DNA of 53,247 nt from Roseibacillus sp. (GTDB lineage Bacteria > Verrucomicrobiota > Verrucomicrobiia > Verrucomicrobiales > Akkermansiaceae), in contig JAKVCR010000021.1 in assembly GCA_022448985.1 (NCBI GenBank), forward strand, positions 1 to 53,247, read 5' to 3'. The position numbers and the translations under genes were made by a program. Positions 29,148 to 36,426 of the stretch are shown here, one piece after another. Under the pieces are notes generated by a model. That model ran no database searches, was not told the origin of the DNA, and saw only the letters and a list, made by a program, of their open reading frames with translations. The stretch's first letter is position 1; each line of letters starts with the position of its first letter.

Positions 29148-31478
29148 TTATTCGACCGGAATGGCGCGACCGGCAGGGCGGCCTTCGACCGGAAGGGCCT
29201 GCAGCGGATGCTGAGGGCAGAAATCGTTGTCGGCGGGAGTGAGATCGATTGGGGTAGGATCATTGTAGGCCATTTTGGCTCGCTCGCATCCTGGAGTGGC
29301 ACGTTTGCCGGATGAACGGCAGAGGCGGCACTGCTTGATGGTCACAGGGGGTTTGATCTCGTCGAATTCGTAGCGCCCAAGACGATCGGCAGTTTTCATG
29401 ACTCGAACCCACACCGGGAGGGCGATGTCCGCACCGTATCCGCCGGGGACGATGGGTTGTGGTTGATCGAGGCCCACCCAGACCGCGCAGGTGAGACCGG
29501 AAGAATATCCCACGAACCAGGCGTCCAGATATTCATCGGTGGTCCCTGTCTTTCCGCCGGCAGGGCGGAGGAATCCCAGTTGGCGGCGCATGCTGGAAGC
29601 GGTTCCGGAACGGGTGGTGCTCTCCAGGATGGTGGAAGTAGTCCAAGCCGATCCCTTCTTGTCGACTGCCAGGTAGCCGATGGGCTTGTGTGCCCATAGT
29701 TCCTTGTCATTGCGGTCGAGAATCCTGCTGACGAAGTGCGGACCGTAGCGGGTGCCACCGTTGGGAAAGATGGTGTAAGCGCTGGCCACTTGCTCGGGGG
29801 TTGCCTCCCAGGCGCCAAGGTAGGAGGACGCCTTGCCTGGGATCTGCATGGCAAAGGACTGGTGGGCCACGGAGCGAACGTTCTCCATGCCTGCATAATT
29901 TCCGATGCGGACCGAAGACGTGTTGCGCGAGTTCATGAGCGCCTGCTTTGCGCTGACACTCTGAAAGTAGTTCCCGTCCGAGTTCCTCGGATCCCAGTCT
30001 CCGGGGGCATGCTTGATTTGTCCCGGCTTGATCCGCGAGTCGTCGATAGAGGATTCCGGGCGCATTCCCCGGTCGAAGGCGGCCAGGTAGACGAAGGGCT
30101 TGAATACGGACCCTACCTGGCGTCTGGCATGAATGGCCCGGTTGAACTTGGATTCGTCGGCATCACGACCACCCACGACACAGCGAATGGCTCCGCTCTG
30201 GTTCTCCACTACCACGACCGCTCCCTGAAGATAGTCGGGGGCTTCCCGCTGCATGGCAGGCGTTGCCTGCCAGCGCGTTCGGGTGTTGTGGCGATAGCCC
30301 GGGCGGCGTTCGATTTCGCTGAGTTTGGAATTGAGGTGGCGCTCAGCGGCTTCCTGGAGGTCCTTGTCGATGGTGGTGATGATCTTCAGACCTCCCTGTT
30401 TGATGTATTTGCGGTCGAGGTGACGCTCGATGTCCCGTCGGATTGCATCCATGGCGTAGCTTCCTTCGATGATGCGGCGGTTCTTGGGGCGAATATGCAG
30501 GGGTTCCGACTTCGCCGCCTTCGCTTCCGCTTCAGTGATGAACTTGTGCTTCACCATCGAATTGAGGGTGGAATCCCGTTCAGCCCGGGTGCCGGTGAGA
30601 TCATCGAATGGTGAAAAGGCGTTTGGCGCACGGATGATTCCTGCCAGCATGGCCGATTCGGAGAGCGTCAGGTCCCGGGCAGACTTTTCGAGGTAGGCAC
30701 GGGAGGCCGCTTCCACGCCGTGAATGGATCCTCCCCAGAAGATGAGATTCATGTAGTGCTGCATGATCTCGTCTTTTCCGTAGTTGGCTTCGATGCGGAA
30801 GGCCAATGCGATCTCAAGGAACTTACGGTCGAGAAGTTTCAACTTCGGGCCGTGGGTGGGGAGGCGATAGGCGTTGCGCGCCAACTGCATGGTGAGGGTG
30901 GAAGCGCCCTGAGCAAAGTGACCACGCTTGATGTTCTCTACTACTGAGCGGGCCACGCCGCGCGGGTCGACCCCCCGGTGCTTGCGAAAACTCTTGTCCT
31001 CCCGCGCGAGGAGAGCCAAGCGGAAGTGAGGGGAAACCTCCTCCAGGTCGACCACGTAGCGGTGGGCGCCGTGCAGGCGTCCCAACTCCTTCATGTTCCG
31101 GTCATAGATGATGGACCGCTCGGGCATTTCAGCCACCTTGTTCATGTCGTAGCGCAGGGATCGGATGAAATAAAAAGCCGCTCCGAGGAAGACGAGGGCC
31201 GCCACCGCGCAGGCGGTGTAACCCACGAACTGAAAGGGGATCCGGAGGAAGGCGGGCCAGTTTCCTGCGATTCTGTTGATCAGCAGAAAGGGCCAGAAAC
31301 AGAATACGAAGAGCGGGCTATGCTTTTTGCGGCCTGCTTTCTTGCGTTTGGAGCTGGAACTCCGGGACGTGCCTGTCCGGCGTGCCTGTTTCCGCGCCCG
31401 CTTACGGGCTGTTCCCCGCCGGGACGAGGAGGATCGTCGGCGTTGGGTGGATTTCTTTCTTGGTCTGCGGCTGGCCAT
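29148..31478 (-). CDS. mrcA: Class A penicillin-binding protein 1A
   Basis: This 776-residue bifunctional enzyme polymerises glycan strands and crosslinks peptides. The first 55 residues are extremely basic (RRPRKKSTQRRR), a cytosolic tail. A membrane helix (VGYTACAVAALVFLGAAFYF) precedes the GT51 domain with REDKSFRKHRGVDPRG and FAQGASTLTMQLARNAYR. The transpeptidase has all three motifs: RQVGSVFKPF (SxxK), SRNTSSVRIGN (SxN) and GGKTGTTDEYLDAW (KTG). The C-terminus has a CRLCRSSGKRATPGC tail. It is the first gene of a probable unit with the degenerate paralogue and the Minf_1886 protein, and it diverges from the PDZ protease. Confidence 0.95.
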   Translation of the reverse strand: MASRRPRKKSTQRRRSSSSRRGTARKRARKQARRTGTSRSSSSKRKKAGRKKHSPLFVFCFWPFLLINRIAGNWPAFLRIPFQFVGYTACAVAALVFLGAAFYFIRSLRYDMNKVAEMPERSIIYDRNMKELGRLHGAHRYVVDLEEVSPHFRLALLAREDKSFRKHRGVDPRGVARSVVENIKRGHFAQGASTLTMQLARNAYRLPTHGPKLKLLDRKFLEIALAFRIEANYGKDEIMQHYMNLIFWGGSIHGVEAASRAYLEKSARDLTLSESAMLAGIIRAPNAFSPFDDLTGTRAERDSTLNSMVKHKFITEAEAKAAKSEPLHIRPKNRRIIEGSYAMDAIRRDIERHLDRKYIKQGGLKIITTIDKDLQEAAERHLNSKLSEIERRPGYRHNTRTRWQATPAMQREAPDYLQGAVVVVENQSGAIRCVVGGRDADESKFNRAIHARRQVGSVFKPFVYLAAFDRGMRPESSIDDSRIKPGQIKHAPGDWDPRNSDGNYFQSVSAKQALMNSRNTSSVRIGNYAGMENVRSVAHQSFAMQIPGKASSYLGAWEATPEQVASAYTIFPNGGTRYGPHFVSRILDRNDKELWAHKPIGYLAVDKKGSAWTTSTILESTTRSGTASSMRRQLGFLRPAGGKTGTTDEYLDAWFVGYSSGLTCAVWVGLDQPQPIVPGGYGADIALPVWVRVMKTADRLGRYEFDEIKPPVTIKQCRLCRSSGKRATPGCERAKMAYNDPTPIDLTPADNDFCPQHPLQALPVEGRPAGRAIPVE

Positions 31479-31589
31479 CCCGGAAACGAACGGGGCCTGA
31501 GGTTAGGTGATGATAATCTAAACGTTGTATTCGGACGAAAAAATGCAGCATCTTTCGCCAGACGAAAACCACGGACATTGACGCTTGGT

Positions 31590-32624
31590 ATGAAAGAAGC
31601 ATATTTCACCGTGATGAGAGTAGCAAGTGTTCGACCTGCAATTGCTGGATTTCTCACCCTTGTAGCTATCCTTGCGAATGGAGTTCTGGCTGAGACGCCG
31701 GTTCAGAATCTCGTTCAGCTCAAGGAACTGCAAAGCAAGGTCGAGCAGATAACCGGCAAGGGACTTCCTGCAACGGTTTCGCTCTTTTCCGAGAAAAGCG
31801 AATCTTCCGGAAGCGGCGTAATAATCTCGAGGGAAGGATTGATCCTGACGGCGGGTCACGTTGTGGACGGGTTGGAGGAGGTCACAGTGGTCTTTCCAGA
31901 TGGCAAGCAGGCACGCGGCAAGGTCCTGGGATCCAATCGTTCCAAGGACGCAGCGATGGTGAAACTTCAGCCAGAGGGAGGGGCGGAATGGCCTTTTGTG
32001 GAACTGGGCGATTCCAAGTCCGTCAAGGTAGGCGATTTTGTGGTCTCTCTTGGCCATGCCGGGGGATACGATGCTCTCCGCACGCCGCCGGTGCGCTTCG
32101 GACGGGTGGTAGCGCTCAATCCTCTTGGATTCATTGGAACCGATTGTGCCCTCATCGGAGGGGATTCGGGCGGCCCGCTTTTTGACCTGGAGGGTAAGGT
32201 GATCGGTATTCACTCCTCTATCGGGGCCAGCCTGATGTCGAATAACCACACCGGCGTGCAGAATTTCATGGCGGACTGGGCACGGCTTGAGAAAGGAGAG
32301 ACCTGGGGACGACTGACCATGAACCCGCTGATGAATCCCGATCGGCCGGTAATTGGATTCAACGTGGCCGGGGCGGTTTCTGGCGGAGTGCAACTGGCAG
32401 AGGTCTACCCCGACTCACCCGCTGATGTTGCAGGAATGCGGCGTGGCGATGTGGTAGTCAGTATTGACGGTCAGCAGGTCCGGAGCCTGCGGGAGTTACA
32501 GGGGATTCTCTCCGGACACGAACCCGGGAACGAAGTGGAACTGGCCTTTACCCGGCGGGGGGAGAGCATGACCAGCAAGGTGAAACTGGCTCGCCTTGCC
32601 GATGTGATGCCTGAACAGAAGTAA
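31590..32624 (+). CDS. Secreted trypsin-like serine protease with one PDZ domain (DegP/HtrA-like)
   Basis: The protein is 344 residues with a signal peptide (RPAIAGFLTLVAILANGVLA). The S1C catalytic triad is visible: His90 in LILTAGHVVDG, Asp120 in SKDAAMVKL and Ser193 in GGDSGGPLFDLEGKVIGIHS. One PDZ domain follows (about 265-335, VYPDSPADVAGMRRGDVVVS). It should cleave misfolded or specific envelope proteins. ATG codons at 31590 and 31614 are both plausible starts. The paralogue downstream begins 23 bases after its end, so the two are very likely cotranscribed. Confidence 0.9.
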   Translation: MKEAYFTVMRVASVRPAIAGFLTLVAILANGVLAETPVQNLVQLKELQSKVEQITGKGLPATVSLFSEKSESSGSGVIISREGLILTAGHVVDGLEEVTVVFPDGKQARGKVLGSNRSKDAAMVKLQPEGGAEWPFVELGDSKSVKVGDFVVSLGHAGGYDALRTPPVRFGRVVALNPLGFIGTDCALIGGDSGGPLFDLEGKVIGIHSSIGASLMSNNHTGVQNFMADWARLEKGETWGRLTMNPLMNPDRPVIGFNVAGAVSGGVQLAEVYPDSPADVAGMRRGDVVVSIDGQQVRSLRELQGILSGHEPGNEVELAFTRRGESMTSKVKLARLADVMPEQK

Positions 32625-32647: not shown

Positions 32648-33805
32648 ATGAAAGTCCCCGTTTCTTCATTGGTCTTTTCTCTGGCTATCCTGCCGGGGGC
32701 CTCTGCGCAGTTGTCTGAGGCGCCGCCGGAGGACCGCGCCCTGCTCCTCCAACAGGCCGGGGATCTGTTCAAGGCTCTCGTGCCCGCGGTGGAGAACGTC
32801 TCCTCCGGTGCGGTGGAGGTGCGGGTCTGGCGCAAGCGGGTAGGATTTGGAACTGTCGTTGCCGCTGGAAAAGTTTTGACCAAGTGGAGCGAAGTGCGTC
32901 GCGATGTGCGGAGCTTGAGTTGCCGGACGGGTGACGGGAAGTGGTTGCCTGCAGTAGTGAGTGGAGTCTATCCGGATGCCGACCTCGCCGTGATGGAAGT
33001 AGAAGGTCTGAAGGCGGGCCCGGTGAAATTTGCAGACGAAAGGACGCTGAAGCTAGGAAGCTTCCTGGCCCTTTCGCGGCCTGATGGGGAAGCTGCGGCG
33101 ATGGGTGTAGTGAGTGTATTGTCGCGCAGTCTGCGTAGTTCCGACCGGGCATTTCTCGGGGTCGTGATGGATCTGGAGTTTGAGGGGCCTGGTGTCCTCG
33201 TGCGGCGGGTGGAACCGAAAACCGGGGCCTCTTCTTCAGGGCTAAGGGCGGGGGATGTCATTATGCGTGTGATGGATCAGGAAGTGAACGGTAGTTTTGA
33301 ATTGGGGACCCTCCTGCAGCGACTGGAACCGGGACAGAAGGTTGAGATCTCCTTTAAGCGTGGGGAAAAGCAGGAAGTGGTGGACGTCGAGTTGGGTGGT
33401 CGACCGCGGACACCGCGGATCCCCTACAGTCGGATGGAGCAGATGAATAGCATGGGCGGACACCGCTATAATGATGTGAAGGATGGTTTCCGGAATGTGA
33501 TCCAGTCCGACATGCAACTTGATCCGGAGGACTGTGGTGCTCCCGTGGTTGACCTGGACGGCCGTGCTATCGGAATTGCGATCGCCCGTGCGGGGCGCAT
33601 CAAGTCCTTCATTGTCCCAGCCTCAGAGATTAAAAGTCTTCTCGCCATCGAGCCGGTTGAGCCGCAGCTGCAGCCGAGGAATTCCGCTGCGCGGATGCGG
33701 GAGCGCGAATTCGAAGAGGGGGACGAGAATCCCTTTGAAGTAATGCGTCGCAAGATGGAAGAAATGCGACGGCTCATGGAGGAGATTGAGGGAAAGGGGA
33801 AGTGA
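32648..33805 (+). CDS. Trypsin-like pseudoprotease with an inserted PDZ domain
   Basis: The 385-residue protein has a signal peptide (VSSLVFSLAILPGASAQ). The first beta-barrel half aligns with the upstream protease, but the catalytic His is replaced (VLTKWSEV, Trp80, against LTAGHVV). Asp112 in DADLAVMEV is kept. A PDZ domain (about 167-250) then interrupts the fold. The second half resumes afterwards with DPEDCGAPVVDLDGRAIGIA, where the nucleophile Ser of GDSGGP is Cys296. The tail is charged and helical (EEMRRLMEEIEGKG). With no His it should not be an ordinary serine protease; a binding or regulatory role in the envelope is more likely. It sits between the active-looking protease and the DUF3179 selenoprotein. 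Confidence 0.85.
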   Translation: MKVPVSSLVFSLAILPGASAQLSEAPPEDRALLLQQAGDLFKALVPAVENVSSGAVEVRVWRKRVGFGTVVAAGKVLTKWSEVRRDVRSLSCRTGDGKWLPAVVSGVYPDADLAVMEVEGLKAGPVKFADERTLKLGSFLALSRPDGEAAAMGVVSVLSRSLRSSDRAFLGVVMDLEFEGPGVLVRRVEPKTGASSSGLRAGDVIMRVMDQEVNGSFELGTLLQRLEPGQKVEISFKRGEKQEVVDVELGGRPRTPRIPYSRMEQMNSMGGHRYNDVKDGFRNVIQSDMQLDPEDCGAPVVDLDGRAIGIAIARAGRIKSFIVPASEIKSLLAIEPVEPQLQPRNSAARMREREFEEGDENPFEVMRRKMEEMRRLMEEIEGKGK

Positions 33806-33870: not shown

Positions 33871-34857
33871 ATGGAATTCGATCGCCGCTTGCTGTATTTG
33901 CCACGCACGAAGAGTAAACTTGCACTGCCCTTTCTTTTACTTGGAGCCTTCCTCGTCCCGATCTCTGCTGATGAGTTCAGACCGCGCAAGGTGGTAAACG
34001 CCTTCCCTGCCATTACGAAACCCAAGATCGTGACAGTCGATGAGGCCAAGCGATTCGTGGAGGCAAATGAACTGGTGCTTGGCGTCGTAATCGGTGATGA
34101 GGCTCGAGCCTACCCCATCAATATGCTTACCAATCCAACCCGGGAGATCATCAACGACAGGCTGGGGGGGCGTGCCATTGCGGCAACCTGGTGACATCTC
34201 TGTTTCAACGGCATAGTGTATGCCCGGACGATCAAGGATCGAGAACTGAACTTCCAGGTCTCCGGGTTGCTCTGGAACCGGAGCCTTGTCATGCGCGATG
34301 TGGAGACTAATTCGCTCTGGAGTCACCTCCTTGGAAAAGCCATGCGGGGGGAGTTCAAGGGGATTGAGCTCAAGATTCTTCCTGGCGTAATGACCACCTG
34401 GTCTGAATGGTGCCTGCGCCATCCCCGGACAACTTTACTTGGCATGTCGCGAACGACACGGAGTTATCGGGAGGCGCTCTGGAAGAAACCCAGGCAGTTT
34501 GTCTATGGTGTCCATCTTGGCGCGGACCGTCCCTCGCCTGCAGTAGCTCTGAAGCGATTGCAGGAGGAACCTGTGTTCAATTTCGAGTCCGCCGGGCATT
34601 TGGTGCTGGTCACCGCTGGCGAGAAGGGGACGCGGGCCCGGGCCTTTAACCGGAAGCTAAAGGGTGGAGTGAGTAGTTTCTCAGCGGCGGGGCAGGGAGT
34701 TATGACCGATGACCGGACGTTCTCCCGCTGGGATGTGGCGACCGGTGAATGTCTGGAAGGGAAGCTGAAGGGTACGGTGTTGACCATTCTTCCCGGGACG
34801 CTCTCCTTTCGTTCCGCTTGGCAGGAGTTTTTCCCGGAGGGCAGGATCTTTGAGTAG
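33871..34857 (+). CDS. Secreted DUF3179 family selenoprotein (in-frame TGA = Sec108)
   Basis: Reading through the TGA at 34192-34194 joins two halves of one 328-residue DUF3179 protein. Before it stand a signal peptide (LALPFLLLGAFLVPISA), VTVDEAKRFVEANELVLGVV and EARAYPINMLTNPTREIIND. The motif across the TGA is ATW-Sec-HLCFNGIVY, where the family has TYCPLC or TWCPLC, so Sec replaces the first Cys of the CxxC pair. The core continues with LNFQVSGLLWNRSLVMRD, TNSLWSHLLGKAMRG and TTWSEWCLRHPRT. The ATG at 33871 is used; a TTG at 33862 with AGGA upstream is an alternative. The family is exported and of unknown function, and a redox role fits the Sec-x-x-Cys site. It follows the two protease-like genes on the same strand. 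Confidence 0.88.
34210..34224 (+). promoter_or_regulatory. Putative bacterial SECIS hairpin for the DUF3179 gene
   Basis: GGCATA (34210-34215) pairs perfectly with TATGCC (34219-34224) across the loop GTG. The stem starts 15 bases after the TGA and the loop 21 bases after it, with G as the first loop base. This matches bacterial SECIS rules. Confidence 0.75.
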
Positions 34858-34972: not shown

Positions 34973-35653
34973 CTATTGCCCAGACTTTTCAGGTTGCGGG
35001 TCCGGTTCCTTGCCGGGGTTGTCGGATCCGCCTTTGCTGATTTTTTCGTTAAGCTGGGCGACCTGCGAACGCAGGGTGTCCCGTTCTTGGAGGACGGCTT
35101 CCATCTGGGCGGCAGTAGGGGCGCCCGCGAACTGTTGCTGGAGGGACTGGAGTTGGCTCTCGGCGGCGCTGGCTCGCGAGAGGGCGGCATTGAGTTGCTG
35201 CTTGAGAGCAGTGTTGTCGGCAGCGTTGCCGGTCTTGGTGGCGAGTTGGCCGCTGAGGGTCTGGACAGTGGTCTGTGACATCTTGAGATCGCTCTGGACC
35301 TTGCTCAACATTGTCTGGAGCTGGGTGACCAGGGTCGCCAGCCTGGTGGAATCCGCAGAGAGGCGACGTGCAAGCTCCTGCGGACTCTCTCCACTAGAAA
35401 TCCCCGGAGTATTTTCCGATCTCATGGCATTCTTCCGGTCCTGCAGTTGCTGGCGGAGCTCTGCAATTTCCGGGTCGTCTCCCCCGAAGCCGTCGCTGGT
35501 CATCTGGAGGATGAGAAGAAAGAGGAGGAGCACTACTGCACCCAGGATGAGCCCTACGATAAGATTCTGGTTGCCCGTGGCGGTGGGCGCGGAGGAGGGC
35601 TCCGGAGTAGCCGGGGTTTTCGTGGAGGGGCTAATGGGAGGGTCGTCGCTCAT
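34973..35653 (-). CDS. Single-helix membrane protein with a coiled coil, function unknown
   Basis: The 226-residue protein has a Pro/Ser/Thr-rich N-terminus, one membrane helix (residues about 30-50, LIVGLILGAVVLLLFLLILQ) and a long heptad-rich region (ELRQQLQDRKNAMRS, LKQQLNAALSRASAAESQLQ, VLQERDTLRSQVAQLNEKIS). It ends in a short charged tail. The layout suggests an inner-membrane protein with a periplasmic coiled coil, but the orientation is not certain. I recognise no family. The ATG at 35653 is preferred to an upstream in-frame start because it precedes the first ordered segment. It is the last gene after the HAD phosphatase gene. Confidence 0.75.
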   Translation of the reverse strand: MSDDPPISPSTKTPATPEPSSAPTATGNQNLIVGLILGAVVLLLFLLILQMTSDGFGGDDPEIAELRQQLQDRKNAMRSENTPGISSGESPQELARRLSADSTRLATLVTQLQTMLSKVQSDLKMSQTTVQTLSGQLATKTGNAADNTALKQQLNAALSRASAAESQLQSLQQQFAGAPTAAQMEAVLQERDTLRSQVAQLNEKISKGGSDNPGKEPDPQPEKSGQ

Positions 35654-35766
35654 TCGAATTGTGGGTGGGATTGCTTCCGGGCCTGCTCGCGAGTGGGGGA
35701 AGGGACTTTCTAGCCCCGAATGTGAATAAGTGCAAGTGTGCGAGAACGCCTTAGAGTGTCGAGGCA

Positions 35767-36426
35767 TTAAACCACGTCCAGCAATTCACGGGGATGCTCG
35801 ACGAGGAAGGAGGGACCCTCCCGGGCCAGTGATTCACGTGAATTGAAACCCCAGGTGACGGCCACGGCCTTCACCCGGGCTTTGCGGGCAGCGCGGAGGT
35901 CACGAATCTCGTCGCCAACGTAGAGGATCTCGCGGGGATTGAGGGAGAAGGTGCGGGCTATGGCGCGCAGGTGCCTGGCCTTACCGCTGAGTTTCCTAAT
36001 GCTGCTTATGAAAGTGAACTCTTCCCGGATGCCGTGGGCATTGAGAAAAGCCTCGATATTTTCCGTTACATTGGAACTGAGGATACCCATGTGCTCCGAT
36101 CGCTCCCGCAGGGCGGGGAGGACCTCCCGGACTCCTTTGATGAGAGAGAGTTTCCCGATTCTTCCGCGGAGGCGCCGCATGGCGGTGGCGAGATGGAAAG
36201 CCACTTTGCGCTTGGGAATACCGAGGTGTTTCAGGAGGCGCTTGGTATCGAGGTTGCGCAGGTTCTCTACATCTTCCGGGTCGATCACGGTATAGCCGTT
36301 TTCCCGGGCGAGATCGTTGTAGATGTTTAACCCTTCGCCGAGGGTATCAGCCAGGGTGCCGTCAAAGTCGAATACGAGGCACCGGTTCAAGGGATGATTC
36401 CTTTCGCTATCACGGTCACTTCGCAC
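35767..36426 (-). CDS. HAD-superfamily phosphatase (phosphoglycolate-phosphatase-like)
   Basis: The 219-residue protein has all HAD motifs: I in VFDFDGTLADT (nucleophile and acid Asp), II in GILSSNVTEN, III Lys in SIRKLSGKARHL and IV in YVGDEIRDLRAARKA. A helical cap lies between motifs I and II. It hydrolyses a small phosphate ester. Phosphoglycolate is the usual guess for this branch, but the substrate cannot be told. The GTG at 36426 overlaps the end of tsaD by 11 bases; a TTG at 36390 with AGGA upstream would begin right at the first motif. Confidence 0.88.
   Translation of the reverse strand: MRSDRDSERNHPLNRCLVFDFDGTLADTLGEGLNIYNDLARENGYTVIDPEDVENLRNLDTKRLLKHLGIPKRKVAFHLATAMRRLRGRIGKLSLIKGVREVLPALRERSEHMGILSSNVTENIEAFLNAHGIREEFTFISSIRKLSGKARHLRAIARTFSLNPREILYVGDEIRDLRAARKARVKAVAVTWGFNSRESLAREGPSFLVEHPRELLDVV

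Follow-up and report, generated by a model that had tools for sequence, protein, structure and literature searches.

A probable DUF3179 selenoprotein of the UxxC type in an Akkermansiaceae genome

The window, meaning the whole stretch of 53,247 nucleotides analysed here, carries a DUF3179 gene on the forward strand at positions 33871..34857. The frame runs from an ATG at 33871 to a TAG at 34855-34857 and contains an in-frame TGA at 34192-34194. Reading through gives a product of 328 residues, in which the TGA would encode Sec108, the first position of a U-H-L-C motif, and the codon at 34201..34203 encodes Cys111, the proposed resolving residue. A bSECIS-like hairpin is located at 34209..34225, 17 to 33 bases past the T of the TGA, on the same strand. 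Two genes for HtrA-like proteins precede the DUF3179 gene, also on the forward strand. The first encodes an HtrA/DegP-like protein with Trypsin_2 and PDZ domains and intact H, D and S residues (31398..32624, with the true start lying inside this stretch), and the second, directly upstream of DUF3179, encodes a Trypsin_2/PDZ protein that is probably a pseudoprotease (32648..33805). The gene following DUF3179 in the window occupies 34973-35767.

The read-through product matches the DUF3179 family (Pfam ID PF11376) at 2.8e-55 with 188.3 bits, the gathering score being 27. In the genome scan, one DUF3179 match segment spans the TGA and a second lies after it. The NCBIfam models and the phage records searched with the product yielded no match, and a PDB profile search returned a single match with an E value of 0.4. 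Nothing but weak matches, 52 in all with a best E value of 0.0083, came from searching the PDB by sequence; nearly all of them were WD-repeat proteins aligned at residues 278-301, together with a few CTP synthases, and we took them as chance. The N-terminus of the protein shows basic residues, a hydrophobic segment and then an SA-D junction; by eye it looks like a signal peptide, and the protein is probably exported.

An in-frame TGA alone is little proof of selenocysteine, since such codons are common by chance in the window, where 42 TGAs are flanked by at least 80 open codons on both sides. The same abundance, and the role of TGA as a stop in the host code, would suit the explanation that the codon is a true stop and that the DUF3179 gene is split or decaying. 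As long frames around one TGA are not rare, the selenoprotein call rests on the homologs. We found 14 orthologs, the window's own and 13 more with identities of 40-83%, each having one in-frame TGA. The first-pass annotation had placed the TGA on the first Cys of the conserved CxxC motif, and the alignment bears this out: the TGA falls on that Cys column in 14/14 orthologs and in all 19 of the 19 TGA-bearing homologs. The frame stays open after the TGA in all 14 orthologs, down to the farthest at about 40% identity. This conservation of both the codon and the open frame beyond it contradicts a true stop, as does the presence of the Sec machinery in the genome, and we regard a split or decaying gene as highly improbable. 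Judged by these comparisons, the DUF3179 gene with a TGA at the Cys column very probably encodes a genuine UxxC-type selenoprotein.

The window genome is a draft of 4.6 Mb in 290 contigs, 97% complete and 5.6% contaminated. The selenocysteine machinery whose absence would have spoken against the first-pass annotation is there, with a tRNA-Sec (anticodon UCA) on a contig other than the window's, SelB (303 bits), SelA (490 bits) and SelD. A tRNA scan and an Rfam scan of the window itself found nothing. SelD is present in two copies (C163:1960-2883 and C249:10781-11704) with an internal TGA in each; as the draft is 5.6% contaminated, they could be strain duplicates. SelA is found in 13/14 ortholog genomes versus 70/260 genomes of the family overall (hypergeometric 1.8e-7, relatedness uncorrected), and in 17/19 TGA-bearing genomes versus 3/7 with the Cys form (Fisher 0.028, again uncorrected for relatedness). 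The two TGA-bearing genomes without a SelA match are G551 (70% complete) and G590 (86% complete).

The hairpin after the TGA has GGCAU-CGUGU-AUGCC as its commonest form, which is exact in 6/14 orthologs, and its distance from the TGA is suitable for a bSECIS. Over the 14 orthologs, 76/84 pairs are kept (a summed count, uncorrected for relatedness), compared with 55.6 (sd 3.1, maximum 64) in 1000 draws of a synonymous-codon null. In 11/14 orthologs the stretch after the TGA gives a better fold than its null at P<0.05, and 0/12 Cys homologs do so at the same place, an imperfect control as these are not close orthologs. Tested ortholog by ortholog, the pair count exceeds the null at P<0.05 in 3/14 only. 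The outermost pair is broken in 7/14 orthologs, and in 4/14 (L046, L047, L049 and L051) the 48-base stretch has a different structure as its lowest-energy fold. Covariation is slight, two related sequences having G-C instead of A-U at one inner pair; the number of pairs changed on both sides is matched by 129/500 shuffles and the covariation score by 5/500. By these counts, the hairpin is conserved more than codon constraint requires in the ortholog clade, and this candidate bSECIS-like element would probably help the UGA to be read as Sec. In a second Sec clade described below such an element is not evident, as 0/5 sequences beat the null when a wider stretch was folded.

Matches to the DUF3179 protein occur in 26/260 genomes of the same family, Akkermansiaceae, and the exchange count at the first motif column stands at 19 Sec (TGA) and 7 Cys. 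Besides the 14 orthologs there are 12 more distant family homologs, 5 with a TGA in the same column (VYUTLCG) and 7 with Cys, of which 5 were placed by alignment and L144 and L145 by eye. In a tree of 42 homolog rows with both motif columns masked, made by a quick method and containing several long branches, the Sec forms fall into two separate clades, giving at least two changes, and the second Sec clade (5 genomes) is nested within Cys forms with SH-aLRT values of 85-99. There are thus two independent Cys/Sec exchanges in one DUF3179 column, and the orthologous clade consists of Sec forms only, among the genomes searched. The tree omits L033-L035 (all Cys), L036, L144, L145 (Cys by eye) and also L103-L107, in which the motif column is uncovered or the sequences are fragmentary. 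Rows L038-L042 were dropped as duplicates of L044, L046, L045, L048 and L049. L103, L104 and L105 form a divergent DUF3179-like subgroup whose match starts after the CxxC region in the alignment.

Across the 42 rows, the first motif column holds 21 C, 19 U and 2 S, and the second holds 38 C and 4 S. Two rows, L029 and L030, have SxxS in place of CxxC, with no thiol at the site, and these members are probably redox-dead. An alignment of 27 out of 33 rows, made without L031, L033, L034, L035, L060 and L062 (all Cys), shows a nearly invariant C108 column and the invariant residues R79, Y81, P82, E92, L110, S131, G132, L134, D143, G160 and W317. The family is patchy at higher ranks, being found in 14/387 genomes of the phylum and in 16/384 of the class (overlapping samples).

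The gene neighbourhood was compared over the same 14 orthologs. The HtrA-like pair precedes DUF3179 in 7/14; in an eighth ortholog the contig breaks off in the second gene of the pair. The surroundings differ in 6/14 orthologs, three of which are on contigs shorter than 11 kb, and the 20 neighbouring proteins annotated for these six include no neighbour common to all. A HAD-like gene adjoins DUF3179 in L110 and L111, a sulfatase is near in L110 and L121, and a TonB-dependent receptor gene adjoins in L123. The first HtrA-like protein keeps the H/D/S triad in 15/15 aligned copies, including the window's. The second lacks the catalytic His in 15/15 aligned copies and has a Ser-like motif, DCGAP, in 16/16 copies, including the window's; by eye, this motif sits after the PDZ domain. 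From these residues, the second Trypsin_2/PDZ protein is likely a pseudoprotease with a conserved Cys.

The recurring gene order, the conserved Cys of DCGAP and a PDZ protein gene downstream of DUF3179 in L122, an ortholog outside the HtrA group, could suggest that the DUF3179 protein serves the two upstream HtrA-like proteins as a redox partner or in quality control. The second HtrA-like gene is found in 15/15 genomes of the genus searched, however, and 8/15 of them keep the pair and the DCGAP Cys without DUF3179. In these eight genomes the counterpart of the gene at 34973-35767 adjoins the pair, and no DUF3179 remnant was found at an E value of 1e-3. Within the genus, DUF3179 is thus present in some genomes and absent from others at one constant location, and these comparisons do not show a tight functional tie to the HtrA-like pair. 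With 6/14 orthologs located elsewhere as well, we consider a partnership with the HtrA-like proteins quite improbable.

Our preferred reading, to which we give a probability of about 0.6, is that this DUF3179 selenoprotein is an exported thiol/selenol oxidoreductase. The UGA at codon 108 would be read as selenocysteine, probably aided by the downstream hairpin, the protein would be exported, Sec108 would act as the attacking, redox-active residue, and Cys111 would serve as the resolving thiol of the U-x-x-C motif. Selenocysteine is rarer and more reactive than cysteine. We infer the Sec insertion, the export, the catalysis and the roles of both residues from sequence comparison. The first-pass annotation had called the replaced Cys catalytic and redox active. 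The near-invariance of the column, the two independent Sec lineages and the slightly weaker conservation of the second Cys are compatible with such a role. The SxxS forms L029 and L030, 2/42 rows, show that some family members lack a thiol there, which sets a limit on the oxidoreductase reading.

The same two residues could instead bind a soft metal such as copper, mercury or zinc, the protein being a metal chaperone or scavenger in which Sec raises the affinity, with no redox catalysis. The apparent export of the protein is compatible with this, as is the receptor gene adjoining DUF3179 in L123, since TonB-dependent receptors are of a type able to import metal complexes. Among 27 annotated neighbouring proteins, however, this receptor is the only one possibly handling metal, and a chelating pair is expected to be conserved jointly, whereas Ser takes the second position in 4/42 rows and 40/42 have C or U at the first, a small difference. 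The prokaryotic selenoprotein families listed in two reviews (PMC9312934 and PMC13188914) include several related to metals, such as MerT and a mercuric reductase-like protein, but the reviews also give a UxxT form for DUF3179, which speaks against a chelating pair. The higher conservation of the first column, small as the difference is, and the UxxT form incline us towards a single attacking residue rather than a chelating pair, and we consider metal binding unlikely. The two independent Cys/Sec exchanges single out the residue to test in the DUF3179 family, and the conservation pattern tells which of the two motif residues to mutate first.

The protein is internally duplicated. The first half, about residues 64-196 (34060..34458, forward strand), holds Sec108 and Cys111, and the second half, about residues 205-328 (34483..34854, forward strand), lacks the CxxC motif. 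The two halves are homologous, with a blastp value of 2e-9 and profile comparison probabilities of 98.9% for the 14 orthologs and 99.6% for the 27 rows.

The AlphaFold2 model made from the 27 aligned rows (pLDDT 89.9, pTM 0.85) consists mostly of strands with short helices. The best Foldseek match is 5bok, with a probability of 1.00, an E value of 0.0098, an rmsd of 4.8 and TM values of 0.62 for the target and 0.23 for the query. Among the best 50 of 498 PDB matches, every one at a probability of at least 0.9 is a Rieske ferredoxin, a Rieske oxygenase or a relative, some identified by title and others being proteins that we take to be Rieske-type, and no chain named thioredoxin occurs among these 50. 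A second model, for the Cys homolog L057 (pLDDT 91.8), again has 5bok first, with a probability of 0.85, an E value of 0.079, an rmsd of 7.8 and a TM of 0.50; four of its best 50 matches have a probability above 0.3, all of them Rieske-type. The alignment behind the L057 model overlaps that of the first in most rows, so the two separately predicted models are not fully independent, and neither has a structural match with E<0.001.

The Rieske [2Fe-2S] cluster is held by a C-x-H ... C-x-x-H ligand pattern. Unlike the Rieske ferredoxins and domains that are its top structural matches, the DUF3179 protein does not contain this ligand set in a pattern search, and a Pfam search of the protein gave no Rieske match. 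Sequence profiles match weakly. The first half reaches probabilities of 0.4%, 1.0% and 0.3% versus the Rieske profile, with 72/200 column-shuffled profiles scoring as high in the last comparison. The second half with all rows reaches 1.2%, then 3.6% with 0/200 shuffles as high; with the 14 orthologs, it reaches 65% versus an untrimmed Rieske alignment and 1.2% versus the Rieske core columns, with 6/200 shuffles as high. The merged halves give 6.9%, and also 1.3% with 2/200 shuffles as high. Reversed Rieske profiles score 11-15 and the real ones 12-19. Profile support for a Rieske ancestry by sequence is weak and comes from the second half only, and we rejected it; as these comparisons are weak, only a likeness of fold is claimed here. 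The models suggest a predicted all-beta, Rieske-like fold without the Rieske ligands, a statistically modest result.

The weak alignments would put UxxC on the turn before the strand leading to the first cluster loop, so that the motif would not be a leftover ligand. A possible but rather doubtful reading is that the tandem-duplicated beta fold of DUF3179 is Rieske-like, has lost its Fe-S cluster and performs redox chemistry through Cys/Sec-x-x-Cys on the hairpin before the old cluster loop. If true, a Rieske-like electron-transfer scaffold would have been converted into a selenol/thiol enzyme, and the fold link would give DUF3179 a structural ancestry. The UxxC motif and the proposed selenol attack and thiol resolution are shared with thioredoxin-like UxxC selenoproteins (Trx, DsbA-like and Prx-like), whereas the predicted DUF3179 fold, mostly strands, is not the thioredoxin-like alpha/beta fold, and the analogy is therefore one of motif only.

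The selenoprotein status of the DUF3179 family is already known. The first-pass annotation had presented the Sec replacement as a first clue to the whole family, a priority that does not stand, as the 2022 and 2026 reviews (PMC9312934 and PMC13188914, Table 1 in each) already include DUF3179 among the predicted selenoprotein families, with the motif UxxC/T. Their source for DUF3179 is Zhang and Gladyshev 2007, a paper on the Olavius symbiont. The protein described here shares the Pfam family and the motif class UxxC/T with these known members, the comparison being one of motif descriptions. It is set apart by belonging to a clade of Akkermansiaceae (Verrucomicrobiota) in which the genomes searched show Sec forms only and roughly half of the members have DUF3179 behind the HtrA-like gene pair. 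A full-text search of a partial library found no Rieske link in the available text of the literature naming DUF3179, including PMC9230427, and no literature combining "Rieske fold" with selenoprotein; the matches listed for selenoproteins in Verrucomicrobia include no title on DUF3179. Relative to this partial library, the Verrucomicrobial Sec clades, the two exchanges, the slightly lower conservation of the second Cys, the SxxS forms, the duplication and the hint at the fold are new.

DUF3179 is also found on plasmids of haloarchaea, Deinococcus, a cyanobacterium and Proteobacteria. At least five of the 20 plasmid records listed are named "DUF3179 domain-containing (seleno)protein", and one of these, L064, has Cys, not Sec, in the alignment. 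On a Thiothrix plasmid (L063), the neighbour of a Cys-form DUF3179 gene is named "GDCCVxC domain-containing (seleno)protein", and cytochrome c peroxidases and a thioredoxin-domain protein are encoded close by.
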